IMG/VR virus record: IMGVR_UViG_3300044630_001218
Span: 1-64,000 of that record
Length of the DNA: 64,000 bases
Reading direction: 5' to 3' (one strand)
Source: a virus
Under the pieces are notes generated by a model. It saw nothing but the letters and a program-made list of their open reading frames with translations, had not been told where the DNA came from and did no database searches. Of this stretch, positions 15,001 through 29,865 are shown in pieces; within the stretch, counting starts at the first letter, position 1, and each line of letters begins with the position of its first letter. The position numbers and the translations under genes are program-made.

Positions 15001-17568
15001 GCCGCATTCCGTAAAGAACAACAAGCTATGGAAAGTAAGCTCAAGAACTCCGGCTTTGGAGAACTTGTTGACTACCTTGTTGAGTTTAGGAACGAGATCA
15101 ATAAGTACAAAGCAGTCATCAACTTCGACGAGTCGAACGATGTGTACCTCACTAGAACGTTTAGGTTCTTCGGCTCGGAAGGTTGGGCTCTCTTCGCTAA
15201 AGAAGGCGGGGTCGCAATGATTGACGGCAAAGAGGTAGACTTTAACAAGCTCCGTGCCGCCGCCGCTAAACACTTTGAGTGGGAGGTAGATAACGACGCA
15301 AAGCAGAACGGACAAACCCTTACTGCTGAACAACGTGATAAGAAACTAATTGAGTATCTTGATAAGTATCTCGCAAACCTCGAACAAGAAGCGGCTGACG
15401 CTAAGGATTTGGGTGCGATGAACACCGTCCGCAAGGACGTGAACCGTTTGCTTCGTAAGAAAGACTTCGACGCCCCACTGCGTACGCTGTTGGGTGAAGT
15501 CACTGATCCATTTGAGAATGCAGTCCGCACTGTGTACAGTGTCGGCAGACTTGCTGCTAACGAAAAGTTCCTACGCAACTTCGCAAGTAAAGCGATTGAG
15601 ATCGAGGTAGCCAGCCGTACGCGCAAGCCTGACATGGAACTGCTCTTCCCACCGAGTCAATCAGCACAGCTCGGAGACCTTGCTGGCTTGTATGTAAGGA
15701 AGGACATCGCCGCCACTATCCGCGAGGAGTTGGGCATGAACGGAATCAAACAGCAGTCGAAAGCAATGGAGACTTTGAATAGCTTGGGCCGTGCAATGTC
15801 CAAGTTCTCCGGTCTTTCCATCACCGCAAAGACATTAGGATCGGTTGGTTTCTATCCCCGTAACGTATTGGGCGGTATTGCACTGACCACTGCGCAAGGC
15901 ATTATCAATCCGGTGTACATGAAAGAGGCGATGCGCCTATCTATCATCTCCAACATGTCCCTCGGAGGTAATGTTAAAGCAGATACGCAAGAGACTCGCA
16001 ATCAGATTCGCCGACTAACCGAATTGCAAATACTCAAGGACGAGACAAGAGGTCGTATCGCAATGGACATGCTTAATGGTTTCGTCAACTCTACGGATCA
16101 GCAACTGGAAGAGTTGCTTGATGCCATTGTCGAAGCGCAAGGCAGCGGTAACATCGAAAAGATTGTTAAGAAGTTCAACCTCGAAGGAACATGGGCCGCG
16201 ACAAAGCAGGCTGGTGGTTCCACTGTAGAGTTCCTCGCTTCTCTTAACAACGTGATTGATAGTGCGTTCAAACTTAACGCTTACTTCTTTGAGTTGAACG
16301 CACTGAAAGAAGCGTACGGCGATACAGAGTCCGAGTCCAAACTTGAGGTAGACGCCGCACGCAAAGTCAAGCTGACATTCCCGACACACTCGGATCAACT
16401 CAGTCTTGCGAAGGCATTTAACAAGTCGCCCTTCGCAATGATCGCCCTTCCGTTCGTGCGCTGGAAGACCGAAGTGTTCCGTACAATGTTTAACACGGTA
16501 CCACTCGCCGTTGAAGAAATGAAATCAGGCAATCCGGTTATGCGCAGTCGTGGTGTGAAGCGTCTAGTTGGATTCACCACTACTATGATAGGCGGTAGTG
16601 CTGCCTACGGTGCATTGTTCGCTACGCTGTTCAGTTTCCTCACCGATGATGAAGACGATGAGCGTGGTGGTGTGCGTGAACTCAACGAAGAAGAACTCGT
16701 TGCGCTCCGTGAAGGTCTACCGAAGTGGCAACGCAACCACGGCATCTTTGCACAGCTACTGCAAGACGGCTCGGTGCAAGTCATCGACATGTCTAACATC
16801 CTACCGTACAGCCAGCTCACTGACATGGTCGGTTTGGCAACTCGCGGTGACATCAAAGGTATGGCTGACTACTTTAGCTCCGAGATGATCGGCACCCAGA
16901 TCGCTGCCAACACTGCGATTGAGGTCGCACAAAACCGCGACCAGTTTGACCAGCCGATCTGGCTGGCTACTGATAATGCTGTTGTCGCGTTCGGTAAGAT
17001 GGCAATGCACCTAATCGGCGGTACACTACAACCTGCTATTATCGACAAAGTAATTAAGGTCGGTAGGTACGGTGAGCAAAATGCCAAGGAGATCATTGTC
17101 GGTGAGCTTACTGGTGTAAGGCCAATAATCCATAAGACAACTGACATCGAGTACCGTGGCATGCGCAACTTGAAAGAGTCGGCTGATGCGGTTGTGTCCT
17201 TGCTCTATCCGTTGTCGTCCGGTAGGGGACTCAATCCAGATGAAGTCGAAGGCATCATCGACGACCATCAGTCGGCGTCTAACAAGAACCAGCAGAAGCT
17301 ACACAACTTCTTGATGGGTATGCAGTCTATCGGTTCTACTGAGTCATCACTTGCTACTACTGCAAAACAAATGAAGTTCAGTAAGCAACGGTTCGGTGCC
17401 GCCCTCGAAGGGGTAAACATTCCGTGGGTGCCGAACGAACAGTGGTTCCGCAAGATGATCGACAACAAGATGCGGGTTGGTGAACAGGACCCCGATGAGA
17501 TCGCTAACGAAATCAACAGGGTCCTGACACAGAAGGCTGATGTTTACAGTACTAACTTCCTTGAGTAA
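6010..17568 (+). CDS. Giant virion-associated protein (3852 residues)
   Basis: A single uninterrupted frame of 11.6 kb, the largest gene in the window. A zinc-protease motif HEYLH lies at residues 2447-2451 (DVLLHEYLHAATV), with a possible third ligand in NNAEFLTY at E2504. A second segment near residue 2687, VDEELAHIAA, looks like a degenerate relative. Around residue 1858 VFFRGIGEDN followed by PLFSSSRD loosely resembles an ADP-ribosyltransferase start, but this is weak. Hydrophobic or Gly-Ala stretches occur near residues 510-530, 640-660, 775-790 and 3523-3545 (GGSAAYGALFATLFSFL). Polyvalent giant proteins of this kind are usually carried in the capsid and injected or form the ejection channel. 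N4-like virion RNA polymerases have similar size, but no polymerase motif was found. Confidence 0.85.
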   Translation: MLEIKSYDDWTEEEEELAEDPVSNIKKYTDYVRLNYSKAGILNPETDSEIAAGVQDRLNEEVFTEDMTEEDRNGIFSSIVGPDKNDDADARFVLDYLKAEGQQDDARVQNLTQYLSMKQLAPDRAEEFRQPVADIIGDRKLVRDSRVAAADRGDFSVVAIEEDNGDRTFYSGPSAKPEKVSGEIDSLIKAGAISTSDLSSISGYVKPINGGLSTTSEATRYDIFRSTVGEKAKADKELGGLLQNQAGTLRQQKEEEQRTTGEAVLEGAKTVIAYPFAKLADAVMAAGSFLTGEEKPEPKYAPDTKLSDVLGSDENLRKKFSAEEIEKFSDAMVADAAGAVFRADKPETGITTDSMGNPIIAAALLPRDDLFEKALAAAPLNKDQQKMARVRRDQLLDTTAPELLKVILEEEPDAVGMLAKAKADGLSDAEFVKTYVSDSKNYSGFETRLEQFGKSAWKTVAEIPLGLAALSGNEWAAKEMVKMNKDQSRRQEFSRMFGDEYGIGFQLLNTIPQVATDIGLTIGTGGVFAGAKTLAKAGSVSSKTALRSMAKLGLSGVDDVAAQSFRTASTAGGEAATSNAIKEVGRSLATKFAENAPVFTTSFVRSATSTYGSIYGQLPDEMSHEEKHKNALGYSLAAGLSTGVITSGMSFLGRGGVEEVATKRIRAMLGGETDDAVLAAGGRVVPVDKMNYRQAKAVYENLKSESVPVTDRAFQRAMRGAIGGAYKNYMRTTFGGVLNEATEEMVDQAIQMKLEDAALDQETPLSEKVNQIFTAGVIGGGLGGIVAGATQFGPVKKSELALVFEGRASALEKVATQLRKTNSNATAETVQRMIDDARTRAAEVTQAEAQAKIQEEKNAELATKKPIFADPAEKQLSDEKEQELELTMLGDLVGEKVSAAGFTGTLEADDSGSIFLNTKDGETIHLGSRYEKAQGRVSAFPQLMTFAKDEGKVLAGTPYIVRGKKATSKVAMPSVTENNRPEDFLGVIKDKGNIIQLVVKGATLMSNQDLDGMDIKISNGYQIKSLARYYNVSLDSLQDLTPPPTDSDVNASSIDEIETNAVSDEAKASIVTAKEVLQYGPNQNLFKAFMAGDSSKAKFKQTVTNLTPDELNFIAQNANTFFDWVSSDDTIPAETRGALLQSAEDLKSRVALAYKFQVDQAAKEAFANEPDLTDEEKAAIEDELKQDLEGDGEEATAPKTQLTSKEQEAENKRLKGVITGAPKEPTAVKTRKTPEGNSVVEGPSPQDQLRKLMADYSDMEFVVPIVATREGPKTFAGATKYRKKLEFLEDIAYSDAATEEFSAELAELKVSMAKGKQAIGSRRRRLRMKMASLMPAEVGSEETTLTQSEQDLASQLSAIEASRPFKTFEEEEEAQEKRTKKKRVDHGGIAGEDWSTEDKLNVFRNQEEELAFNDLVLGGFRISDLSAYGRAIAGLTQEDMGYGEVPLFTKQRLEGDPTDPMKYLKGKHKFLYRKVIENYPLVTPTSKDEPVTSKRSYTNVETGEYRTIPIPVFRDASYDAVAGEFTNDPIIIREQIDQNIPVTIPKQLIKRSENAKDAFKINPSIEFDPDTGVVMSVIDPITRQPIRFSGEEAYVNGSYIPIKARKTESLLMSLVAPSGRYLSSAGETAKGRQSIGQQVVNNKVVPAKNLNARDYTGDFQKWMMGEVAFDGEFERGAGHRFLKSEFQLDDDSISDLSSYALAEYGLSVYEFAMGKALLDYAAKSVKFEKNKSITKRLTKAAEEKGLTLEQYKEHPDFASEFNLTKESLRDLNPVGVVADFFYTNSKEAMATAIAERHPNLSGSTAHNVITKYAEFLYERVNEPDGDLFTGPKNPLNILKKFGKDYQNAEKARNIRKTVFFRGIGEDNESVLDTLLATGKLNDYALDPLFSSSRDMVDDDPETATTYRISLRDSLIRQINDTPELKRAMKDIALLFHKGFEVLESGEMIVDVLNNKIVSITGDNRDISMAIVNRLSGLKTGLRAAGVMSELGWLPPVAKFEAIPPTVEPPASFESPTASKDRLIELVDKAKESAYRAGGKTTPQEEVAYRNKIIEAVRVAQPEIQEAFAAAETLRRKGDLRERYEQSIKSVFNKMDTETINAAVNKLSQTISNNRSKLDKFDEQIELVNSEITEAGLSLSNIFNEINVQRRALGLGARPESELLADLSSEGEFKQPTAAELSSLERPQPTATPKQVKVKKTKAAERAQLALPQLTDSYNMALSNVRFHTRKKNSVTRDKEVSIALIERLNPLMQRIDDVMVDDMSETEKIGTVEAILTRALTGDPADTRAATDYKKASESMKLKASGIVEETTELKGYEKIARMAAPALMKMRNDVTRLNKSVSNVNSAELEQAARIANSEDVARYALESNDPESVLTALRIISKSKVEHHREVAKLLLLAPDFVRSVKFGIVDVRSDWAGIYDSESNAVMVNLSGHNGRGLADVLLHEYLHAATVTYLNDPRTAEQRAAVQRINQLRELAIAQATKKGLMRYAHVRNGLANNAEFLTYTITAPEFQSMLAAMTPTGQRSILSRMIDAILSFFGKKNTLLNKAIKELFDFSQMSLASYHTFNISSRRDIDGIVQIAQDARVAFEDKVFFGSMVEDILTRYEGGGEGVFAAESTGPFDAEAELRRIVPAGINIEIDNNMVAAMGIRRSKPNTIIINQEYVAELGTGLSQANAKAVIRTAVDEELAHIAANSVFTNDDYLAIAKELGPDMVNRILDITYSNMEPDDAIRASRIAADREAGLTGDLDAAAEWVRMEMTRMATGRTREVDIAFFYTNPSLLERFLEGLKAFIVKLKQQFRATPTTGTAAHISQASRSFRKLRNGGVLPTPEPSAANEYGDTTAFFNAINGDIAEGQEDRTYFMFPVAGTGASKQKTKDFWKMAQDKMYNLPMELRKYLNMRDGTISQIEYTIEDFDRRFPKLRDEALARGASIEDIGMILGTTAPAVQGEARKEIQRKVREFKKDNATDPDLERKAEDYEAQLTQPEADKFFAAFRKEQQAMESKLKNSGFGELVDYLVEFRNEINKYKAVINFDESNDVYLTRTFRFFGSEGWALFAKEGGVAMIDGKEVDFNKLRAAAAKHFEWEVDNDAKQNGQTLTAEQRDKKLIEYLDKYLANLEQEAADAKDLGAMNTVRKDVNRLLRKKDFDAPLRTLLGEVTDPFENAVRTVYSVGRLAANEKFLRNFASKAIEIEVASRTRKPDMELLFPPSQSAQLGDLAGLYVRKDIAATIREELGMNGIKQQSKAMETLNSLGRAMSKFSGLSITAKTLGSVGFYPRNVLGGIALTTAQGIINPVYMKEAMRLSIISNMSLGGNVKADTQETRNQIRRLTELQILKDETRGRIAMDMLNGFVNSTDQQLEELLDAIVEAQGSGNIEKIVKKFNLEGTWAATKQAGGSTVEFLASLNNVIDSAFKLNAYFFELNALKEAYGDTESESKLEVDAARKVKLTFPTHSDQLSLAKAFNKSPFAMIALPFVRWKTEVFRTMFNTVPLAVEEMKSGNPVMRSRGVKRLVGFTTTMIGGSAAYGALFATLFSFLTDDEDDERGGVRELNEEELVALREGLPKWQRNHGIFAQLLQDGSVQVIDMSNILPYSQLTDMVGLATRGDIKGMADYFSSEMIGTQIAANTAIEVAQNRDQFDQPIWLATDNAVVAFGKMAMHLIGGTLQPAIIDKVIKVGRYGEQNAKEIIVGELTGVRPIIHKTTDIEYRGMRNLKESADAVVSLLYPLSSGRGLNPDEVEGIIDDHQSASNKNQQKLHNFLMGMQSIGSTESSLATTAKQMKFSKQRFGAALEGVNIPWVPNEQWFRKMIDNKMRVGEQDPDEIANEINRVLTQKADVYSTNFLE

Positions 17569-18949: not shown

Positions 18950-20353
18950 TCACACATCAGTAATCTCGATAACCTCACCAGCTTTAAATGCACTGGTATG
19001 GGCACCAGTTGACAGCCAGAGCAGGGGGAACTCGACATTGGTGATGTCTTTCAGATCATCCGAGTATCCGTCCGTTAGGTAGACCATGACATCCACATCC
19101 TGCGCATGCTCGGCTACCCAATCAAAGGCTGGCTTGAACTTCGTACCACCCCCGCCCTTGAGTTTGGCTGGCACGGTGTCGCCTACCTCAAGAGTCAAGT
19201 CATCGGCTACCACATGCGAGACGGATAGTAGGTGCAACTTGTCTGGCTTGAGGTCATCGAGTACCGCTTGTGCTTCGCTGAGGAAGCGGTCGTAGGTGCG
19301 CTGTCCAATTGAACCGGAGGTATCCAGTACCAGTACTATCTCTCCGGCGTTGCGGGTGCGGCGACCAGCGGCGACGAGTCCAGTTGTCTGGAAGATCGGG
19401 TTGTTGAACGGCGCATCCCATCCGTTGCGTGAACGCTTTGTCAACCACTCACGTAGCAGGTCGGGCCAGCTCAACGAGGAACTGGTACGCTGTGACTGCA
19501 AGCGGTTGGCAGTTGTGCCCTTGTCACCTTGTTGGCGGCGATCTATTTCGTCGGCGATGAAGATCGAATCGTTGGCTTCTTCGATGCGGTCGATGACTTC
19601 CTGCTTGGACTCACCGTCTTCGGCTTCCGGCTCGAACGTATCCGGTGCGCCAGTGCCGACAAAGTCCGACAGATCATCTCCACTATCCAACTCGTCAGTG
19701 TCGGTAGCACTATCACCCCCGCTGTCAGGATCACTAGTAGTACTGTCTTCACTGCTCTCCTGCTCATTGCCTTCGCTGTCTTCGCTGTCGTCTTGATCGC
19801 TGTCTTCATTGTTATCATTGTTGGTATCATTGTTGGTATCATCTTGTTGTTGGGATGGTTTAGGATTAATCTCTTGGTTCTGTTGTGGTTTAGCTAGTAT
19901 GCGGTAGAGTTGCTCGGCTGAATTGTTGCCGGACAACTGCTCGTCAAGGAGCACGCCCTCGATGAGGGGGAATACTTCCTTGCCGATCTCACGGTTGCGG
20001 TTGGCGATCATCGCATTGATGATGTAGTCAGCCGCAACATTAGCAGTCTTCGAGTCGGGTAGTTTGGCGAGACGCCAGCCGTGACCGAGCAGTGCGTGCA
20101 ATGCTTCATGCACTAGCAGGAATGCAATGAGGCCAGCACCGTTTGGTTTGTTGGCTAATTTGTTGATGCCATCCCTGTTGAGTAGCAAGGTGGCACCGTC
20201 CGTTGCGCCGTATGGTACAGCGTCCGACCACTGCCAGCTCATAGACATGAGCTTGCTGTGTGCGATGAACCAGTACCGACCTGTTGTCCGCATGGCTACG
20301 GACAACGGGTGGTTGGTGGCGAATGATGTGGGGTCTATCATGTTTGTTTCCAT
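18950..20353 (-). CDS. Metallopeptidase-VWA protein (DUF2201/CobT-like)
   Basis: 467 residues in three parts. The N-terminal metallopeptidase-like domain has HEALHALLGH at residues 82-91, a HExxHxxxxH zinc site, followed by AADYIINA. Residues about 155-235 are an extremely acidic, low-complexity linker rich in Asp, Asn, Glu and Ser. The C-terminal von Willebrand A domain has a MIDAS start LDTSGSIG at D344-G351 and later YLTDGYSDD. MoxR AAA+ ATPases act with VWA proteins as chaperone pairs that load metals or remodel partners. Encoded 20 bp after a DUF3150-like gene and downstream of a MoxR ATPase, it is the likely ATPase partner. The substrate is unknown. Confidence 0.85.
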   Translation of the reverse strand: METNMIDPTSFATNHPLSVAMRTTGRYWFIAHSKLMSMSWQWSDAVPYGATDGATLLLNRDGINKLANKPNGAGLIAFLLVHEALHALLGHGWRLAKLPDSKTANVAADYIINAMIANRNREIGKEVFPLIEGVLLDEQLSGNNSAEQLYRILAKPQQNQEINPKPSQQQDDTNNDTNNDNNEDSDQDDSEDSEGNEQESSEDSTTSDPDSGGDSATDTDELDSGDDLSDFVGTGAPDTFEPEAEDGESKQEVIDRIEEANDSIFIADEIDRRQQGDKGTTANRLQSQRTSSSLSWPDLLREWLTKRSRNGWDAPFNNPIFQTTGLVAAGRRTRNAGEIVLVLDTSGSIGQRTYDRFLSEAQAVLDDLKPDKLHLLSVSHVVADDLTLEVGDTVPAKLKGGGGTKFKPAFDWVAEHAQDVDVMVYLTDGYSDDLKDITNVEFPLLWLSTGAHTSAFKAGEVIEITDV

Positions 20354-20373
20354 TTGTATTTATGTGGTTGGTA

Positions 20374-21246
20374 TTACAGACCGAGAGCGGCAAGAGTCTC
20401 GTCAGCTTTTACAGCTGCGGCTTCCGCCTTCTGGGCAATGCGAACACGCTCGTCTTGCGTCAGCTCGCCAGCAGGAATGCGAGCAGCGTCAGCTACTGCA
20501 AGTACAACTTGCTCGATCTCCGGTAGCTCGAAGAAGTTGAGCTTCTGCACACGCTGTGCCTCTTCACGCAGCTTGTCGAACTGCGACAGGTGCAAGCGGT
20601 CAGCGTTGCGCAAGCGGTTGGAGAACTCTGCGATCACAGCTTTCAGATCGTTGATCGGGCCAGCGTGTGAAGCACGGAGCATCTCTGTCACCTGCCGTTG
20701 CGAGTCAGCACGCACGCGGTTGGCAACCTCTTCGGTGAGGCCGACAAGCACGGCATCGTCAACCGCAACAGGCTGGTTGATGATGGTCAAGTTCATGGTG
20801 AACTTGCTCGCCACCTCCGTAGCAGTAGGGATCTGCACCTCGTTGACGAACGAACCTAATTGCGTATGCAAGGAGGTGAGTAGGTCAGGATAGGTAGCGA
20901 GGATATCCTCACGGACGGTATCGAGTTCTGCTTGCGCATCATCGAAGATGTTCTGCACTTCGGCGACATCCTTGATGCGGAGGTAGATGCCTCCGGTCTG
21001 GCAGAGCGAACCGCAACGGCGGACGGCAACGCCTGTCCGTTGTTGCAGACTGATAGCACGACCGACTGCCGTGCCTCGCGCCGTGAGGATCGTGTTGTAG
21101 ACACGAGCCGCATTGCGGTCAGCTCCAGCGGCAGTCACCGCCCTCGTTGATGCACTACGATTGAGTGCGTTGGTTGCTGGTGCCGTGGTGCTGAAGTGGC
21201 AGAGCACGATGGATTGGAATGCCTTGAGTTGTTGTGTAGTAGTCAT
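20374..21246 (-). CDS. DUF3150-like protein between MoxR and VWA genes
   Basis: 290 residues. After an Ala/Thr-rich start it is almost all helix, with long amphipathic stretches such as VQNIFDDAQAELDTVREDIL and RLRNADRLHLSQFDKLREEA, ending AAVKADETLAALGL. Proteins of this length placed between a phage MoxR ATPase and a VWA/metallopeptidase gene are often annotated DUF3150; I base the assignment on context and helical layout, not on a search. Spacing is 39 bp to the ATPase gene and 20 bp to the VWA gene. It could be an adaptor or the structural target of the ATPase. Confidence 0.6.
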   Translation of the reverse strand: MTTTQQLKAFQSIVLCHFSTTAPATNALNRSASTRAVTAAGADRNAARVYNTILTARGTAVGRAISLQQRTGVAVRRCGSLCQTGGIYLRIKDVAEVQNIFDDAQAELDTVREDILATYPDLLTSLHTQLGSFVNEVQIPTATEVASKFTMNLTIINQPVAVDDAVLVGLTEEVANRVRADSQRQVTEMLRASHAGPINDLKAVIAEFSNRLRNADRLHLSQFDKLREEAQRVQKLNFFELPEIEQVVLAVADAARIPAGELTQDERVRIAQKAEAAAVKADETLAALGL

Positions 21247-21285
21247 GTTGTATTTCTATTCTGTTTGTTTTGTTTTGTTGTTTGC

Positions 21286-22368
21286 TTATGCGAGGATGAG
21301 GTCACGGCTTTGTGGGTGCTCATCCAGAGGGATGCCTCGGCGTACGGCAGAGCGTGCACCGAACTCACGAATGTCGCCACGGCAACGGAGCAGTAGGGAT
21401 ACAAGCCAGTCGAAGCCGCCGCTGTGTACGGCAATGGCGATGTCCTTGACGCCGCGAGTAGCGATGGCAAGGCAAGCGGACACGAGGGCGAACTGCACCG
21501 CAGGATCTTCCGGTACCTTAAAGGAATCGGGGTCAGCCTTGAGGGTGGCGATGTCCGGCAACTTGTCCACATGCTGGAGGAATGCGAAGTAAGTAGACGC
21601 CGCACGATCACCGACCGAACCTCGCACGAACTTGCGGAACGCTTCCGGTTTGGTGGCGCGGAATGGGTGTGCCAGTGCTACCGCTTCCCATGTACGAGGA
21701 CATGGATGGGGCACGCCATCGTACGGCATGACGACAGGCGGGTTGAAGTGGTCGAGTCCGTCACCGCTAGTCGTACCAAACTTGAGGAACGCTGGCACAT
21801 GAGACCCGCTTGCCGTCAGCTTGGCTTGACTATCGTACCAATCAAGCCAGTCCCCGACATTGGGTTCGAGCGTGACCTTGACGCAACGCTCGGTGAACGG
21901 GGCATCCTCAACGGCGGATCGGGTGCCGTCCTGTCTGCGGTTGGAGGCGCAGACTACGAAGACATTCGAGCCTAACACATGAGGTCCAACCATCCTGTCA
22001 CCGGATGCAGGGTACAGGGAACGGAGCAGGGCACGAACCGCAGGGTCATAGTCGTTGCACTCGTCGAGGAACAAGAGCACAGGCTCGTCACCTACACGCT
22101 TGGCAGTAGGCCAAATGTCCGGTGCGTAGAACGACATGTCATCGCCGTCTGGTTTGCCGTATCCGATCACCTCTTGCGGGCCCTGCCCGTTGAGGTTGAC
22201 ACAATACACCTTGCGTCCCATCTGCGGGGCGAGGATCTTGGTGACGATGCTGGTCTTGCCAGCACCACCGCTACCCACGATGAACAGGAAGCGGTCGGTT
22301 GCTACTGCGATCTCCGCGAGGTCGAGGAGTTCGGATGGTTTGGTTGGGTTAATGGAGTTAGTTGTCAT
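21286..22368 (-). CDS. MoxR/CobS-type AAA+ ATPase
   Basis: 360 residues. Walker A GSGGAGKTS at residues 32-40 (K38), Walker B VLLFLDECN at about 97-105 (D102, E103), and a sensor-1-like VFVVCASNRR near 140. A conserved NLNGQGPQEVIGYG stretch follows Walker A, typical of MoxR/CobS ATPases, which use ATP to remodel VWA-domain partners. It is the first gene of a three-gene set with a DUF3150-like protein and a VWA-metallopeptidase, transcribed from the promoter at 22436-22464. In host cells such pairs mature metalloenzymes or complexes; the phage role is unknown. Confidence 0.88.
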   Translation of the reverse strand: MTTNSINPTKPSELLDLAEIAVATDRFLFIVGSGGAGKTSIVTKILAPQMGRKVYCVNLNGQGPQEVIGYGKPDGDDMSFYAPDIWPTAKRVGDEPVLLFLDECNDYDPAVRALLRSLYPASGDRMVGPHVLGSNVFVVCASNRRQDGTRSAVEDAPFTERCVKVTLEPNVGDWLDWYDSQAKLTASGSHVPAFLKFGTTSGDGLDHFNPPVVMPYDGVPHPCPRTWEAVALAHPFRATKPEAFRKFVRGSVGDRAASTYFAFLQHVDKLPDIATLKADPDSFKVPEDPAVQFALVSACLAIATRGVKDIAIAVHSGGFDWLVSLLLRCRGDIREFGARSAVRRGIPLDEHPQSRDLILA

Positions 22369-23342: not shown

Positions 23343-23394
23343 ATGTTTGTTTCTATTTGTTAGGTTGTGCTCCAACTATGCGGTAAGCTACGCA
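23340..23394 (-). repeat. Duplicated 55-bp gene leader, copy 1
   Basis: Near-identical (2 mismatches) to 24044-24098. On the minus strand it reads TGCGTAGCTTACCGCAT..., a short hairpin-like GTTG/CAAC pair, then AACAAATAGAAACAAAC and the ATG. It supplies the same 5' leader to two unrelated genes. Confidence 0.8.
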
Positions 23395-24046: not shown

Positions 24047-24098
24047 ATGCTTGTTTCTATTTGTTAGGTTGTGCTCCAACCATGCGGTAAGCTACGCA
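24044..24098 (-). repeat. Duplicated 55-bp gene leader, copy 2
   Basis: Second copy of the 23340-23394 leader, two substitutions. Between it and the next upstream gene end (24129) lies a CAGGATACAGG motif (24104-24114). Confidence 0.8.
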
Positions 24099-24128: not shown

Positions 24129-24221
24129 TTATCTGAATCGTGTGTTGTCGTTGTCCTGCAACAGGGCAGAGATAACGACAGCCAGCAGGATCAAGAGTAT
24201 GATTACTAGTGGGGTTGTCAT
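24129..24221 (-). CDS. Tiny membrane protein (30 residues)
   Basis: MTTPLVIILLILLAVVISAL is a clean transmembrane segment, followed by a charged tail LQDNDNTRFR. ATG 24221 overlaps the stop of the peptidase gene (ATGA), which suggests translational coupling. No lysis partner is nearby. Role unknown; it resembles the 33- and 28-residue membrane peptides elsewhere in this block in size only. Confidence 0.55.
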   Translation of the reverse strand: MTTPLVIILLILLAVVISALLQDNDNTRFR

Positions 24222-25270
24222 ACCAGTACGGGTTTGTGTTTTGCTGTGACAGAATAACTATCTAGTTCTTCTGACATCTCATAGGAGATTAGTAGTTCTT
24301 CGAGGTCATCGGTCGTAGCCTTGTCGAGTTGGTCGTAGTACCTGCAATAACCGAAGTCTTCGAGATCCGCTATTAGTTTATCTCTGTAATCGGAGTGCGG
24401 TTGGAATGTATCGGCGGCTAGTTCCTTGTCGATGTCGTCCCATGTATTGTTCTTCGACCACTTCCATTTACTCGTCGTAGTGTACGACTTGTATGTGGGC
24501 CAGTTGTCAACAGGCTTGTGCGACCAGCGGTGGTTGCCCATCGTGGTTGCGATTGCATAGGCTAGGTCACAGGCAATCTGCAACTCGTCGAGATGCACGA
24601 CCTCGGTGTGTGAGTGCGGGTTGTGGTAGCCAGATGATATGTTAATCATCGAGACGCCGAGGCCGCGACTCGCAAGCTCGCCGATGTCGGTGACGCTACC
24701 TGTATTCTCGCTGTGCCTACTGGCTTGCGGCAAGGCAAGCACGGCAGCAATGAACTCATCCGATGCACAGGTCATGCCGTTGGTATCACGAATGACATCG
24801 AAGGTTCGGTTGTTCCTATCCGCTTGCAGGACAAAGGACGCATGGTCGAACCATGTGAGTGGCACTTCACCGCTACCAATACACCCGACTTCCTCGTCAC
24901 GAACGAACACCGCTGTGCAATGATTGAGTCTGTGCAACATCTCAAGTGCAAGGTAGATACCACACTTGTCGTCGCCGCCGACACCGCATTGCTTGTCGTT
25001 GCCGTCCACTGCGGATAGTACATTGTCCTTCAGACGCAACGACATGAAGGGCGCATAGCTATGCACCTGATCCATGTGTGCTAGGAAGTAAGGGTGTGGG
25101 CCAGTCGGCCCGCCTTTACGGATTAGCAGGTTGCCTCTGTTGCGTATGATGGTGCAACCCTTCGGGGCGAGGGACGAGATGACCTGCATGGCATGGTCAT
25201 TGCACTTCTTATTTTGTGACGGGTTCTGTATCTCGAACACCGCCTTCAGCATTTTGTTATTCACTTTCAT
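24218..25270 (-). CDS. M20/M28-like zinc peptidase
   Basis: 350 residues. Candidate di-zinc ligands appear in the order expected for M20/M28/M42 peptidases: YFLAHMDQVH (H65, D67), GGDDKCG (D100 or D101), VRDEEVGCIGS (E126, E127), LQADRNN (D151) and SSGYHNPHSHTE (H216/H219/H221). The C-terminal 90 residues (Trp-rich, then acidic helices) lie beyond the catalytic core. These enzymes remove amino acids from peptides or act on related amides, in the cytoplasm. A phage copy is uncommon. It could recycle peptides or inactivate a host peptide or acyl-amino signal; the substrate cannot be read from the sequence. Confidence 0.75.
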   Translation of the reverse strand: MKVNNKMLKAVFEIQNPSQNKKCNDHAMQVISSLAPKGCTIIRNRGNLLIRKGGPTGPHPYFLAHMDQVHSYAPFMSLRLKDNVLSAVDGNDKQCGVGGDDKCGIYLALEMLHRLNHCTAVFVRDEEVGCIGSGEVPLTWFDHASFVLQADRNNRTFDVIRDTNGMTCASDEFIAAVLALPQASRHSENTGSVTDIGELASRGLGVSMINISSGYHNPHSHTEVVHLDELQIACDLAYAIATTMGNHRWSHKPVDNWPTYKSYTTTSKWKWSKNNTWDDIDKELAADTFQPHSDYRDKLIADLEDFGYCRYYDQLDKATTDDLEELLISYEMSEELDSYSVTAKHKPVLV

Positions 25271-25284
25271 ATGTATCTGATTTG

Positions 25285-25304
25285 TTATTCGGTTAACCGA
25301 ATAA
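25285..25304. repeat. Perfect 20-bp palindrome in intergenic gap
   Basis: TTATTCGGTT followed directly by AACCGAATAA. It is a variant of the CTTATTCCGT...ACGGAATAAG hairpin that separates the other genes of this block, with changed but compensating bases. Confidence 0.7.
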
Positions 25305-25317
25305 GGATTGGTTAGGG

Positions 25318-26808
25318 TTAGGCTTCTACTTCTGTGTCCGCTTCGGTATCGGCATAGACATAGTTGCCTTGTTCATCTCGCTTAACACGAGGGTCGGTGT
25401 AGAGCAAGTAGATTCCATCGGGCATCTCGACGGCATCATCATTGTGTGCGTACTCGCCGCTACTCTCGTTGCCGATTTCTATTGCGTCATCGGAGAGGAT
25501 GTTCTCTCCGTTGTGCGCTTCTGTGATGTCATCGTCGTGCGCCCATGCTCGTCTGCCGTAGTTCGATTCATCCAGCAAACTACAATCCTCTCGCAACTCG
25601 TAGTCCCCGTTGTGTGTACATACTACATCGTCATTGCAGTACCACTCTTCGTACCGATCGACATATGTCGCATCGTCAATATGGGATCGCCCGCCGTGGT
25701 GCAGAGTCACCATGTTCTCGTCATCTTCGAAGTCACCTGATCCATCTGTCTGGTCAAGGCTACCGACAAGGTAGCAACCATCAATAGACGAGGACTTGCG
25801 ATTGCGTAAGCACCCATCGCTGTACCAGTAGCGCATCGAGTCAACATACGGATACTCGGAGAAGTTGTAGTGATCCACACCACCGAGGCTTATCCTAATG
25901 TTCCTAAACTCAAGACCAATCTCGCCGATGCAGGAATCATGCACACACTTGTTGATATTGTTGGCGGCGCAGAACTCTTTGACCACATCGAGAACAGCAC
26001 GAAGTTTGACGCTGTTGCGGGTGTGGGCATAGACCCTATCTAAATACAGGTCATCTGGGTTAGTGCCGTACCACACTAGCGCACGACCACTATGCTCGCC
26101 GCGTCCGTTGGTAATTGTTATCATGCCTAGCTTGCCGATCCTTTGTAGGTAATCGTACAACTCGAACCTCGACTCATTTTCGCCAGCCATACACGAGCCG
26201 AACTGACTATCGCTCTCGCTGGCATAGACATCTGATATGTTGCCAGTGATGAAGTCGCAATGATACTTCATGCTGTCTATGATATCAGGTATCTTGGACA
26301 GCATATCGTTGGTGATATCCTGCGTGAGCGGTGTCATGCCGAGCATCTTACGCAGGGCATTGATAGCGGCTACAGGACGCATGTAGTCTGACCAACGCGA
26401 CTTGCTTTCGTAGTTGTAGATGTACTCTCTGGTGTACTCTACAAGTCGGGCACCAGACTTCTCGTCCAGTACGAACGGAGGTCGGTTGGTGTGCTCGCTG
26501 ATCGCTTCCAGTCCTGCTGCTAACGGGATGTCTTTGTGCTGTCCGTTATCCAGTAGCGGTACAGGCAAGGACAGCCTTACCTGTGCTCCCTTGATTAGCA
26601 TATCCCACACTCCGTATGTTCGGTATCTCTCGATCGAACCTGATGGTCGGCGGTGTGCGTCTATGCAGTATGTCATTAGACCTGTATCCTTGTTGTAGAT
26701 AACGAGGTCTTGTGGTATGTAGTCTACTCCGCAGAACAATGCGGCTACTGCTTCGCTGACGCTGATCGAATCTTCATCGACCAGCTGTATGTCTTTTCTA
26801 TATCTCAT
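25318..26808 (-). CDS. Large hypothetical protein with Asp-rich C-terminal repeats
   Basis: 496 residues, unrecognised. The first 400 residues look like an ordinary mixed fold, including a two-residue-spaced CMAGENESRFELYDYLQR segment and a Tyr-rich part. The last 110 residues are acidic and contain spaced repeats such as WAHDDDITEAHNGE, LSDDAIEIGNESSGEYAH and NDDAVEMPDGIYLL, each with a DDA-hydrophobic-E core. Such repeats could bind cations or form a beta structure. Its leader (26809-26916) carries a copy of the intergenic hairpin. Large for this block of small genes; function unknown. Confidence 0.6.
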   Translation of the reverse strand: MRYRKDIQLVDEDSISVSEAVAALFCGVDYIPQDLVIYNKDTGLMTYCIDAHRRPSGSIERYRTYGVWDMLIKGAQVRLSLPVPLLDNGQHKDIPLAAGLEAISEHTNRPPFVLDEKSGARLVEYTREYIYNYESKSRWSDYMRPVAAINALRKMLGMTPLTQDITNDMLSKIPDIIDSMKYHCDFITGNISDVYASESDSQFGSCMAGENESRFELYDYLQRIGKLGMITITNGRGEHSGRALVWYGTNPDDLYLDRVYAHTRNSVKLRAVLDVVKEFCAANNINKCVHDSCIGEIGLEFRNIRISLGGVDHYNFSEYPYVDSMRYWYSDGCLRNRKSSSIDGCYLVGSLDQTDGSGDFEDDENMVTLHHGGRSHIDDATYVDRYEEWYCNDDVVCTHNGDYELREDCSLLDESNYGRRAWAHDDDITEAHNGENILSDDAIEIGNESSGEYAHNDDAVEMPDGIYLLYTDPRVKRDEQGNYVYADTEADTEVEA

Positions 26809-26820
26809 TTGTTTATTTCT

Positions 26821-26906
26821 ATTCTTATTTGTTTTGCGTGCTCATACCATATGAACAGCGTGCTACCCTTATTCCGTTGACGGAATAAGAGTAGTATCGC
26901 TAATCA
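26821..26906 (-). repeat. Intergenic hairpin element, copy A
   Basis: Core hairpin 26868-26889: arms CTTATTCCGT and ACGGAATAAG around TG. Outer arms AGCG-tg-CTAC and GTAG-tat-CGCT also pair. The 68 bp 26821-26888 are identical to 28041-28108. It fills the gap between the 496- and 177-residue genes. Confidence 0.85.
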
Positions 26907-26916
26907 TGTAGAGGGA

Positions 26917-27450
26917 TTACATTTTCAGATAGTCAAGGTTGCGTTGGGCTGACTCGATTGCATCTTCCGTAGTGAACGGGCAATACCAGTTCCTGAGCGG
27001 GTCTTCGCCAGTCTTGGCACAATACAAATCATACAATGCCCAGCACCTAAAGGAGTGCAGTATCCTGCCTAGACAACCCGCCTGTCCGAGTTCGATGAGA
27101 GTGACCTCATCTATCTCGTCACCTTCACGCTCATCGAATCCTGCTATCGGTTGGTAGTCACCACATCCAGCGATGCTGTCTTGATAAACTACATACCAAT
27201 GCTTGCCGTCTTTACGACCCATGCTGACATACTGAATATCCATATGCCAACTTTCTGGGCAACACCTGTCATCGCAAGGCCAAGGTACTCCGACATCCTC
27301 GGCATCAGACTCCCACTCGAAGTCACCTTCTGGCGTGCCATCGAACAAGCCTTCGAGTGTGGGGGTTTCGAGGTTGTCGATCTTGTCTGCATAAACAGAC
27401 TCAACCTCATTGGTCAGCTCTTCTATTATTTGTTTTTGTTCTTTAGTCAT
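26917..27450 (-). CDS. Hypothetical protein (177 residues)
   Basis: An acidic start (MTKEQKQIIEELTNEVESVY) leads to a Cys/His/Trp-rich middle, PWPCDDRCCPESWHMD, and then strand-like GKHWYVVYQDSIAGCGDY. The C-terminus is helical with LRNWYCPFTTEDAIESAQRN. Several cysteines suggest a metal site. It lies between hairpin copies A and B. No family recognised. Confidence 0.6.
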   Translation of the reverse strand: MTKEQKQIIEELTNEVESVYADKIDNLETPTLEGLFDGTPEGDFEWESDAEDVGVPWPCDDRCCPESWHMDIQYVSMGRKDGKHWYVVYQDSIAGCGDYQPIAGFDEREGDEIDEVTLIELGQAGCLGRILHSFRCWALYDLYCAKTGEDPLRNWYCPFTTEDAIESAQRNLDYLKM

Positions 27451-27468
27451 ATTTCTATTTGTTTACTG

Positions 27469-27534
27469 CTCATACCATATGAACAGCGTGCTACCCTTAT
27501 TCCGTTGACGGAATAAGAGTAGTATCGCTAATCA
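27469..27534 (-). repeat. Intergenic hairpin element, copy B
   Basis: Core hairpin 27496-27517 with the same arms as copy A and the same outer arms; the flanks GCTCATACCATATGAACAGC and GTAGTATCGCTAATCA are identical to copy A. Confidence 0.85.
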
Positions 27535-28029
27535 CTTGTTGAGGTAGATAACCTTTGCGTTAGCATCATCTATCGGGTCTATCTTGAATCGCGCTTCACT
27601 CTCGTCATCGTGTGGATACCACCTATCCCCACAACATTGGCAGTCTTTGCCATCGCGCACGCCATTCCAATAGAGTCCGTTCTTCTCTGCGATCTCGTTC
27701 GCCACCACATAGTTCGGGGCTTCGATGATAACATTGCTTGGGCCGTATGTCTTACCACCACTATTATTCTGGTGGTAGTGGTAGAATCTAATCGGCGGCA
27801 GCGTTAGCAACGCTGCATCTTGCTTCACTCTGTAGATAGAGTTGCTTAATGCGACTTCGATATCCCCGAACGCACTCTGCGGGAACCACCAGTCGTGATC
27901 TTCGTCGCAGTTCGGATCAATAAGAGGCTTAAGCATCTCAAGCACTCTCTTGCGCATCTCTCTAGTGCGCTTCTGCATATCCTCTAGTTCTTCAACTAGA
28001 TACTCGGCATACTCATTGTATTCGTTCAT
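27532..28029 (-). CDS. Conserved phage protein with CxxCG site
   Basis: 165 residues. A coiled-coil start (EYLVEELEDMQKRTREMRKR) is followed by a conserved-looking half: FYHYHQNNSGGKTYG, VIIEAPNYVVANEIAEKNGL, and GKDCQCCGDRWYPHDDE. Proteins pairing an Asn-Ser-Gly-Gly stretch with a DCxCCGxRW zinc-like site occur in many phages and carry no known function. Stop lies just inside hairpin copy B; start follows copy C. Confidence 0.65.
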   Translation of the reverse strand: MNEYNEYAEYLVEELEDMQKRTREMRKRVLEMLKPLIDPNCDEDHDWWFPQSAFGDIEVALSNSIYRVKQDAALLTLPPIRFYHYHQNNSGGKTYGPSNVIIEAPNYVVANEIAEKNGLYWNGVRDGKDCQCCGDRWYPHDDESEARFKIDPIDDANAKVIYLNK

Positions 28030-28040
28030 ATTTGTTTTCT

Positions 28041-28125
28041 ATTCTTATTTGTTTTGCGTGCTCATACCATATGAACAGCGTGCTACCCTTATTCCGTTGA
28101 CGGAATAAGGGCAGAGTCGCTAGTC
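28041..28125 (-). repeat. Intergenic hairpin element, copy C
   Basis: Core hairpin 28088-28109. 28041-28108 is identical to copy A, but the outer arm on the gene side is changed (GGGCAGAGTCGCT), keeping partial pairing. Confidence 0.85.
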
Positions 28126-28267
28126 ATTTGCCTATGACTGGCATCATCACGACATTGCCATACAAGACTGGCGTTGGCGTTGCTAACTTGTCGAGCGCAT
28201 CACGGCTCGCAAGATAGATGATGGCGGCGTCAACCGATGCGGTGCTTGTGGTCGCGTCAATGTTCAT
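28124..28267 (-). CDS. Hypothetical protein (47 residues)
   Basis: MNIDATTSTASVDAAIIYLA followed by a Pro/Val-rich end. The ATG at 28267 overlaps the stop of the upstream 62-residue gene (ATGA), so translation is probably coupled. A longer in-frame start was rejected because it would run through that gene. Function unknown. Confidence 0.5.
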   Translation of the reverse strand: MNIDATTSTASVDAAIIYLASRDALDKLATPTPVLYGNVVMMPVIGK

Positions 28268-28452
28268 GGCTTCACCTCCACTTGCTCGAATGCTTGAGCC
28301 AACGACACGCCAAATGGCTTTGGCTGTTGCTGTGGCTTTGGCGTTGTCGTGACGAGATCGACAAGCGGGCGATGCCATTTGATGACATTGGGCTTGCTGA
28401 TGTTCTCTTCGAGGAGCGCAAAGAATCGCGCATGTTCTTTTGTCTTTCTCAT
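28264..28452 (-). CDS. Hypothetical protein (62 residues)
   Basis: MRKTKEHARFFALLEENISK with a Pro/Gln/Lys stretch (TPKPQQQPKPFG) and an acidic end. Start ATG 28452 is preceded by an A-rich leader (AGAAAAATAAAC). It lies between hairpin copies D and C with one coupled gene. No family recognised. Confidence 0.5.
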   Translation of the reverse strand: MRKTKEHARFFALLEENISKPNVIKWHRPLVDLVTTTPKPQQQPKPFGVSLAQAFEQVEVKP

Positions 28453-28473
28453 GTTTATTTTTCTATGCGGGGT

Positions 28474-28530
28474 TATGAACCGCTTGCTGACCTTATTCCG
28501 TTGACGGAATAAGACCAGACAGCGAGTCAT
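28474..28530 (-). repeat. Intergenic hairpin element, copy D
   Basis: Core 28492-28513: CTTATTCCGT, TG, ACGGAATAAG. Outer arms CGCTTGCTG and CAGACAGCG differ from copies A-C yet still pair (CGCT/AGCG and CTG/CAG), which indicates selection on structure. Confidence 0.8.
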
Positions 28531-28616
28531 CACCATGAGCCGTTCATGTATTGAATGGCGATGATGCCGTAGACGGCAATGATGATGCCGATTAGGATTG
28601 CGAGTGTTTCTTTCAT
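28530..28616 (-). CDS. Tiny membrane protein (28 residues)
   Basis: MKETLAILIGIIIAVYGIIA is one transmembrane segment, followed by IQYMNGSW. Start ATG 28616; it sits between hairpin D and an inverted CCTGTATCCTG repeat. A conventional start with no overlap and Lys/Glu before a clean hydrophobic run make it credible despite its size. Role unknown. Confidence 0.5.
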   Translation of the reverse strand: MKETLAILIGIIIAVYGIIAIQYMNGSW

Positions 28617-28634
28617 GGTATTTGAATGTGGAAA

Positions 28635-28671
28635 CCTGTATCCTGAAAGGGTTGGACTTGCAGGATACAGG
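28635..28671. repeat. Inverted CAGGATACAGG repeat (11-bp perfect arms)
   Basis: CCTGTATCCTG (28635-28645) and CAGGATACAGG (28661-28671) around 15 bases; a further GTGCAGGAT follows. One of several REP-like copies in gene-free DNA of this genome. Confidence 0.8.
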
Positions 28672-28681
28672 GTGCAGGATT

Positions 28682-28703
28682 CTTATTCCGTTGACGGATT
28701 AAG
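28682..28703 (-). repeat. Intergenic hairpin element, copy E
   Basis: CTTATTCCGT (28682-28691), TG, ACGGATTAAG (28694-28703); one mismatch. Directly downstream of the 126-residue gene on the minus strand. Confidence 0.7.
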
Positions 28704-28705
28704 GA

Positions 28706-29086
28706 TTACATTGCGGCGAGCAGGGCAATGAGCTTCTTCACGCCCTTGGCATCCAAGGCACGAGCCATGTGAGCGAGTTGCTCTGGCGTGACACCTTTGC
28801 CGCTTGGCTTGTCGCTTGGCTTGCTTGCCTTGCGTCCGCCACCCGCCGCACGCAAGCGGAAGCCAGCATCGCAAGCAATCTCGCCCGCCCACTTGTTGGA
28901 ATAGCCCTTGCTAACTGCGAACTCTACGAACGCGCGGCGGAATGCCATTGGATTGGACTTGTCCGCCTGTGCATTCCATAGCGCAAGCAAGGCATCCATG
29001 AGTTTGACTTCTGCCTTGTGGACTGCTTCCATGAACGGAAGAAGTGAAGTGAAGTCAATGTTTTGTTTTTCTGTTTTGTTTTGCAT
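28706..29086 (-). CDS. Hypothetical protein (126 residues)
   Basis: Start chosen at ATG 29086 (MQNKTEKQNIDFTSLLPFME), after an A-rich leader. The first 75 residues look globular and helical (VKLMDALLALWNAQADKSNP; YSNKWAGEIACDAGFRLR), followed by a Gly/Lys/Ser basic linker, AAGGGRKASKPSDKPSGKG, and a C-terminal helix rich in Ala and Leu. This could be a DNA-binding protein, but no motif is recognised. First gene of the minus-strand accessory block. Confidence 0.55.
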   Translation of the reverse strand: MQNKTEKQNIDFTSLLPFMEAVHKAEVKLMDALLALWNAQADKSNPMAFRRAFVEFAVSKGYSNKWAGEIACDAGFRLRAAGGGRKASKPSDKPSGKGVTPEQLAHMARALDAKGVKKLIALLAAM

Positions 29087-29117
29087 ACTTTTTTGTTTTC
29101 GTATTTGTTTTAGTTGA

Positions 29118-29161
29118 GCGATGCGCTTATTCCGTTGACAGAATAAGAAGAGACGCATCGC
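29118..29161 (-). repeat. Intergenic hairpin element, copy F
   Basis: CTTATTCCGT (29126-29135), TG, ACAGAATAAG (29138-29147), enclosed by perfect 8-bp outer arms GCGATGCG (29118-29125) and CGCATCGC (29154-29161). The outer arms differ in sequence from the other copies but pair perfectly. Upstream of the first gene of the minus-strand block. Confidence 0.8.
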
Positions 29162-29380
29162 CCTTCACATACTAGGGAAACCACACCTCGCACACGCCAC
29201 GCTTGCATCATACCGCAAACGCTACTTGCGCCCTGTATCAGGCATCAGGGAACATGAATCAGGATACAGGCTACGGGTAGGATGGTTCTTTTTTTCACAG
29301 ACGCGCGCGTATAGGTAACCTCCTTGAGAAAAAATAATTTTACTTGACAAATTAGGTATTGACACGAGAGTATGGTGCCT
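29162..29380. other. Gene-free stretch with CAGGATACAGG copies
   Basis: Divergent region between the minus-strand block and the plus-strand genes. CCTGTATC (29232-29239) and GATACAGG (29263-29270) form an inverted pair. Two TTGACA hexamers (29344-29349, 29359-29364) and TATGGT (29371-29376) precede ATG 29381; the spacers (21 and 6 bp) are not ideal, so a promoter is only possible. Confidence 0.5.
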
Positions 29381-29614
29381 ATGAGCGACAAGCAATCCTA
29401 CTACGAGCGGTTCAAAGAGGAACGTAAGGCCTATCAGAAGGCGTATTACACCAAGAATAAGGAGTCGCTGAAGCGTAAAAAGGAGCTAGATGCAAGCCTA
29501 AAACCAGAAAAACTGGAAAAAGTGCGGGATTATCAGCGAAATTACTACTTGACAAACCGTCAGAAGTTGCTGGAACGCAAACGGTTACGCTATCTGGAAG
29601 AAAAATCTGCGTAA
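29381..29614 (+). CDS. Small basic phage protein with YYxKN repeats
   Basis: 77 residues of Lys/Arg/Tyr-rich helix: YQKAYYTKNKESLKRKK and YQRNYYLTNRQKLLERK are two related repeats. Proteins with repeated aromatic-Tyr-x-x-Asn-Lys/Arg blocks are common in phages and may bind nucleic acid. ATG 29381 was chosen over ATG 29372 because the latter lies inside a TATGGT -10-like box. Function unknown. Confidence 0.6.
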   Translation: MSDKQSYYERFKEERKAYQKAYYTKNKESLKRKKELDASLKPEKLEKVRDYQRNYYLTNRQKLLERKRLRYLEEKSA

Positions 29615-29865
29615 CTGTGACCTGCATCCTGTATCACGTGACCTGTTTCATGTGTCACGTAGCCTAAAAGGGTACAGTGTGTAGGATACAGTACAAAGTG
29701 GACGCTTTGTGTACAGTTTTTGATACGTTAGCACATTTCGCGGACGGACAGGCGCGGTAAACGGTTCCGGTTACAGGATTCAGAAACAATTGGACACGAC
29801 TTTTGGGCTCTTAAAAAATGAAAAACTGAGATTTCTAAATGTCTGAAAACTTTTAGGAAGTGTGC

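Follow-up and report, generated by a model that had tools for sequence, protein, structure and literature searches.

Introduction

Module boundary (linker) sequences are short sequences shared at gene edges that permit phages to exchange modules. The RNase III sites of phage T7 are of another kind, consisting of helices around an internal loop, and one of them lies ahead of the first gene. Five RNase III sites occur in the ~7,000-nt early transcript of T7 (PMC4858673). Cluster K mycobacteriophages carry ESAS, 17-bp imperfect inverted repeats beside a 13-bp SAS (GGGATAGGAGCCC). These repeats lie upstream of many gene starts, with a consensus that varies by subcluster; changes in their arms generally do not support RNA pairing, and the authors favoured DNA-protein binding (PMC3203893). 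In integron attC arrays, single genes are separated by structured, imperfectly paired repeats, and gene content is variable.

Here, we analyse hairpins between the genes of a leftward cluster in a window of 64,000 nucleotides, part of a 66,279-bp virus record. Like the T7 early RNase III sites, several of these hairpins lie between genes of a polycistronic mRNA. Unlike in T7, the sequence is unrelated, the host is probably another, the upper stem has 13-14 bp, a second hairpin shares a strand with the first and the element is linked to a stop codon; cleavage is here a prediction. As with ESAS, the nearest parallel on description, inverted repeats stand ahead of many genes, but RNA pairing is strongly supported here, and the SAS 13-mer was not found in the whole window with up to 2 mismatches. 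The cluster resembles attC arrays in its single genes, its structured and imperfectly paired repeats and its variable gene content, but six records lack an integrase match, the RNA is selected and the exchange is explained by homology. It differs from phage linker sequences in that a covarying RNA structure forms the boundary. Literature searches returned nothing specific on phage linker sequences and nothing directly relevant on covarying intercistronic phage hairpins. We class the element as a variant of intercistronic mRNA hairpins, outside both the Rfam families and ESAS.

Hairpins in the gaps of a leftward gene cluster

The leftward cluster begins near 29,160, and the adjoining rightward genes begin near 29,370. 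Its order is gene 1, a tiny gene, a short two-gene pair, a DUF7296 gene, a 177-aa gene, a 496-aa gene and an M42-type peptidase gene. The first genes are small and few have a known family; a protein-family search left nearly all cassette proteins without any family. We regard the cluster as a set of small, variable phage genes that are probably early. Elsewhere in the window, a single 3,852-aa ORF (6010-17568, + strand) likely encodes a large virion protein. Downstream of the hairpin cluster, an ATPase gene (phrog_1297; 18950-22368, - strand) that is conserved in 13 related contigs adjoins a gene for a DUF2201 VWA-like metallopeptidase.

An earlier note on this DNA had described seven hairpins, at 25285, 26868, 27496, 28088, 28492, 28682 and 29126, and all seven are borne out. 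With up to 3 mismatches, TTATTCCGTYRACGGAATAA matches exactly these seven places in the window, against none in 100 dinucleotide shuffles. The hairpins are confined to gaps of the leftward cluster, with no other match in the 66,279-bp record. All genes around them run on the minus strand, and their transcript is therefore the reverse complement of the strand first described. The hairpin previously drawn as 10 bp with a 2-nt loop fits better as a 9-bp stem that closes a 4-nt loop and carries a 5-bp extension, and the apparent mismatch at 29126 (C/A on the + strand) is a U-G pair in the mRNA.

The seven copies had also been taken as one family, and here uniformity does not hold. The copies at 26868, 27496, 28088 and 28492 (class A) are one ~68-nt element with a common architecture. 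Those at 29126 (class B) and 28682 (class C) have only the apical ~22 nt in common with class A, and the copy at 25285 is a lone 8-bp palindrome with a base pair reversed (CGG/CCG).

All features that follow are on the minus strand. Class B (29108..29164; model match E 2e-5) occupies the 5' leader of gene 1 and is made up of a GCGATGCG lower stem, a 6-nt bulge and a CTTATTCTG-UCAA-CGGAATAAG apical stem; its lower arms are its own and covary. Gene 1 (28706..29089; about 127 aa from the ATG at 29089) has no assigned function and is conserved in 6 phages. Class C (28679..28706), 3' of the gene 1 stop, is an imperfect apical hairpin, CTTAATCCG-UCAA-CGGAATAAG, joined directly 3' to a CCTGTATCCTG...CAGGATACAGG hairpin (28635..28678) of a different repeat family that recurs elsewhere in the genome. 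Class A element 1 (28466..28532; 76.6 bits) comprises hairpin 1 and the beginning of hairpin 2, both described below. The basal UGA of element 2 (28062..28129; 78.5 bits) is the stop of the gene at 28124-28378, and that of element 3 (27470..27537; 80.0 bits) is the stop of the DUF7296 gene (27532..28029; 165 aa), a variable cassette gene in place of which the relative G001 has two unrelated genes. The 177-aa gene (26917..27450) has no assigned function and is 97% identical to its G001 counterpart. Element 4 (26842..26909; 79.0 bits) lies ahead of the 496-aa gene, and a single compensated base pair separates its hairpin 1 from that of the G001 ortholog. The 496-aa gene (25318..26808), again with no assigned function, is the last in the hairpin array. 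Between it and the M42-type peptidase gene (24218-25270) stands the lone 8-bp apical hairpin TTATTCGG-UUAA-CCGAATAA (25285..25304), which has no lower stem.

Other repeats share the intergenic space. The CCTGTATCCTG/CAGGATACAGG family occurs at 28635-28678, 29224-29277 and 29614-29690 of the window and in gaps of the relatives; its members are often inverted pairs in gaps and are spread genome-wide. A second intercistronic element, GCGUAGCUUACCGCAURGUUGnAGC, is present at 24073-24097 and 23369-23393 (- strand) and in L041, L046, L047, L048, L050 and L053, often directly 3' of a AAGTCAAGAC/GTCTTGACTT hairpin and ahead of an A-rich leader. Its loop GCUU could pair with a downstream AAGC to give a possible pseudoknot, and it has no Rfam match.

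Architecture of the element

In mRNA sense, the order is stop codon, hairpin 1, hairpin 2, A-rich leader and next start codon. Class A begins with a basal UGA and a 10-position lower helix (one mismatch within the window group), followed by a 2x2 or 3x2 internal loop, a 13-14 bp upper helix and an apical loop of 4-8 nt. The return strands lead into a second, smaller hairpin and then an A-rich stretch, and the next AUG mostly lies 70-105 nt past the basal UGA. This UGA ends the upstream gene in frame in 16 of the 30 copies checked; in 9 the upstream stop lies 4-56 nt earlier, and for the other 5 none was found by the 30-codon rule.

All 31 copies examined also offer an alternative fold, in which the lower stem's 3' strand would pair downstream to form hairpin 2. 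The pairings are GCGGTT..AACCCGC, GCTGTTCATA..TATGAGCAGT and GGCAGTT..AACTGC, and in one G001 copy two bases are missing from each arm. Hairpin 2 has a mean folding energy of -7.0 kcal/mol versus -2.87 ± 0.34 after shuffling of the downstream part (25 distinct versions), with several single versions not significant against shuffled downstream sequence. Hairpins 1 and 2 are mutually exclusive, and hairpin 1 is favoured by a mean of 4.2 kcal/mol. The preference reaches 4-14 kcal/mol in many copies; in the CATATGG type, the two pairings are near balance, within about 2 kcal/mol in many copies.

Covariation and the strand of selection

We aligned 28 distinct class A copies, drawn from the window and from eight contigs of related uncultivated phages. 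The consensus structure pairs in 98.2% of 616 cells (28 copies, 22 pairs). Two-sided change affects 10 of the 22 pairs (67 cells), more than in any of 500 shuffles, and the covariation score is 0.367 compared with 0.140 ± 0.013 for shuffled alignments and ≤ 0.068 when slid by 1-3 columns; the copies are related within and between genomes, and the shuffle counts are not probabilities. RNAalifold, unaided, gives essentially the same structure. The lower stem alone occurs as CGCT/AGCG, AGCG/CGCT, CGCG/CGCG and TTGCCC/GGGCAG. Judged from the aligned copies, two-sided changes on such a scale would be hard to explain without selection for pairing. The earlier observation that outer arms differ yet pair with their own partners extends across nine phage records, and the proposal drawn from it, that structure is kept rather than sequence, gains strong support from two-sided covariation among the copies of relatives.

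The pairs also tell the strands apart. In mRNA sense, class A shows 64 G-U pairs versus 1 A-C across the 616 cells, or 36 versus 1 once the U-G pair that is invariant in class A (columns 8-58) is set aside. An A-C in mRNA sense is a G-U on the opposite strand, so selection sees the mRNA and not the DNA duplex or the opposite RNA. The argument is limited to class A; near the loop, class C and some class B copies carry a mismatch, A-C or C-C. Structure, mRNA strand and position show that the element is a cis-acting structured RNA between the genes of the leftward cluster.

Distribution among related phages

An exact-core scan of viral contigs gave no match because the relatives carry a swapped base pair. 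Looser patterns, together with protein searches, recovered eight related contigs with class A elements: G001 (3300043436_002669), G002 (3300027956_000009), G003 (3300037493_003531), G004 (3300044535_000442), G005 (3300008263_000034), L045 (3300032287_002340), L046 (3300027741_000074) and L053 (3300034068_000558). The copies in G004 and L045 were added by patterns with variant loop lengths. G001 is ~97% identical to the window over parts of the cluster, but where the window has CTTATTCCG/CGGAATAAG, G001 has CTTATTCGG/CCGAATAAG, with one base pair reversed in copy after copy. The covariance-model search suggested in the earlier note was run with the class A copies and found a further copy in a phage outside the training set, giving one new lineage, L048/L049 (E 6e-10), whose upper stem is different (GCCGTTAGCTAG...CTGACTAACGGC).

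Searches further afield were negative. The singletons L079, L080, L082, L084, L085, L087 and L088 were judged unrelated from context, and blastn of the region against named phages gave no match. A pattern scan of 84,980 cellular genomes returned 24 scattered stretches, one site each and in unrelated phyla, which we take as chance or unrelated hairpins. The class A element is restricted to this phage group in the collections searched. In Rfam searches, tRNA alone exceeded the gathering threshold in the window and no family exceeded the curated threshold in six relatives; weak mir-251 matches at 26849 and 27477 were below threshold and are taken as chance.

Gene exchange at the elements

Between the conserved first and last genes, gene number and kind vary among phages. 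The window has the DUF7296 gene and the 177-aa gene, G001 has genes of 124, 147 and 177 aa, G003 has genes of 93 and 180 aa, G005 has one of 159 aa and G002 has none. Similarity between the window and G001 ends 29 nt ahead of the start codon of the exchanged gene and sets in again 3-10 nt short of where its stop codon ends. The elements are thus the edges of exchange.

The tyrosine recombinase domain Phage_integrase (PF00589) had no match in six records, some of them possibly fragments, and the simplest reading is therefore that cassettes are exchanged by ordinary homologous recombination through the repeats. The repeated ~90-nt element would supply the homology, and single genes could be swapped without damage, as a by-product. 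The hairpins had earlier been proposed as possible recombination sites for cassette exchange. That exchange occurs at the elements is correct, but sequence homology suffices, and the search of those six records for a tyrosine recombinase was negative.

The end of the array differs as well. In the window and L050 it holds the 496-aa gene and the M42-type peptidase gene, and in some other phages an unannotated protein of 422-442 aa and a glutamine-amidotransferase/GGACT protein. These are alternative gene pairs in one place (window 24218-26808 versus L031 10212-12650, L053 7462-9866 and L048 6764-9203).

Discussion

So, what might the element do? Of the functions raised in the earlier note, an mRNA processing or stability signal is favoured by the asymmetry of G-U over A-C and by fixed helix lengths with variable loops. 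By analogy with T7, its most likely form is an RNase III-type intercistronic site, a tentative assignment to which we give slightly less than an even chance, with cleavage itself inferred. Helix lengths and the internal loop are near-constant while loops and upper-stem letters vary, which fits an enzyme that measures double-stranded RNA better than a loop-binding protein. This fit and the T7 precedent lead us to prefer RNase III-type processing and end protection. As in T7, the elements lie between genes of one co-directional cluster, and class A offers about two helical turns of double-stranded RNA with a small internal loop.

Under the processing model, host RNase III would recognise the element and cut it at the internal loop, dividing the polycistronic mRNA gene by gene. 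Each upstream product would keep the stable upper stem as protection of its 3' end, and each downstream product would carry hairpin 2 as protection of its 5' end. The early RNase III sites of T7 share this layout. The phages searched have no match to the RNase III Pfam family PF14622, which a Bacteroides control genome does match, so the enzyme would have to be that of the host. SD-like motifs occur in the leaders of only 3 of 37 genes; the leaders are A-rich, with A at -3 and -6. SD-less leaders with A at these positions have been described for Bacteroidota (PMC6847099). The likeness suggests a Bacteroidota host, which is likely but not certain.

Some features sit less easily with processing. 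The apical sequence CTTATTC/GAATAAG is common to classes A, B and C, yet RNase III needs no particular apical sequence. The shared sequence may have arisen by common descent with gene conversion, or may point to a partner with sequence specificity, and it may count against RNase III. Class C and some class B copies, with their mismatch near the loop, also fit the RNase III model less well.

The hairpin pair could instead work uncut, insulating neighbouring genes or tuning stability or translation. Terminating ribosomes would open the lower stem, hairpin 2 would form and the A-rich start would stay unstructured for SD-less initiation. The stop codon within the lower stem is suggestive here, as are the two exclusive pairings in every copy, close to balance in many CATATGG copies, and the A-rich leaders with few SD-like motifs, as in Bacteroidota (PMC6847099). 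Against this, hairpin 1 is strongly favoured in many copies, neither state covers the start codon and no ribosome finishes translation ahead of class B, which stands before gene 1. We consider an uncut element possible but unlikely. A more doubtful proposal is a previously undescribed bistable intercistronic RNA family, present across a group of uncultivated phages, in which a terminating ribosome or a cut at each gene boundary would switch the shared strand between the two hairpins and set the expression of each gene, and which would also be the homologous joint of the cassette array.

It is less probable again that an RNA-binding protein of phage or host origin, such as a translational regulator or antiterminator, recognises the apical stem. 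Such a partner could account for the apical stem sequence that classes A, B and C share within a genome, and for a 3' arm that is CGGAATAAG in 6 of 7 window copies and CCGAATAAG in seven G001 copies, which suggests concerted change. The loop, however, varies freely (UCAA, CUGA, UUAG, CUCAA, UUGAG, CUCCAA or 8 nt), L046 and L048 have an apical stem of other sequence, and no candidate binder was identified.

Signals at the DNA level, whether operator palindromes (an earlier suggestion that is now disfavoured), attC-like recombination sites or palindromes that template switching corrects during replication, with covariation as a by-product, appear very improbable. The core is nearly palindromic and single-gene cassettes do differ among phages at the elements, but neither a DNA signal nor template switching would favour G-U on one strand, the internal loops are kept unpaired, a Phage_integrase domain is absent from six records and ordinary homology explains the exchange. 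Intrinsic terminators or attenuators without a clear U-run are scarcely credible, even with stable hairpins directly 3' of stop codons, as the genes on either side of the elements are co-directional and belong to one cluster, no U-run follows hairpin 1 or 2 (in line with the earlier remark that these are not typical terminators) and scans called class A elements neither terminators nor promoters.

The element would be a new structured RNA family, repeated at most boundaries of a fast-changing phage gene block and backed by covariation in the window and eight related contigs, with a covariance model ready for further searches. If RNase III-type processing is the correct reading, the element would link two subjects that are mostly treated separately, gene-by-gene cutting or protection of mRNA and the swapping of single accessory genes, and each swap would leave control intact.
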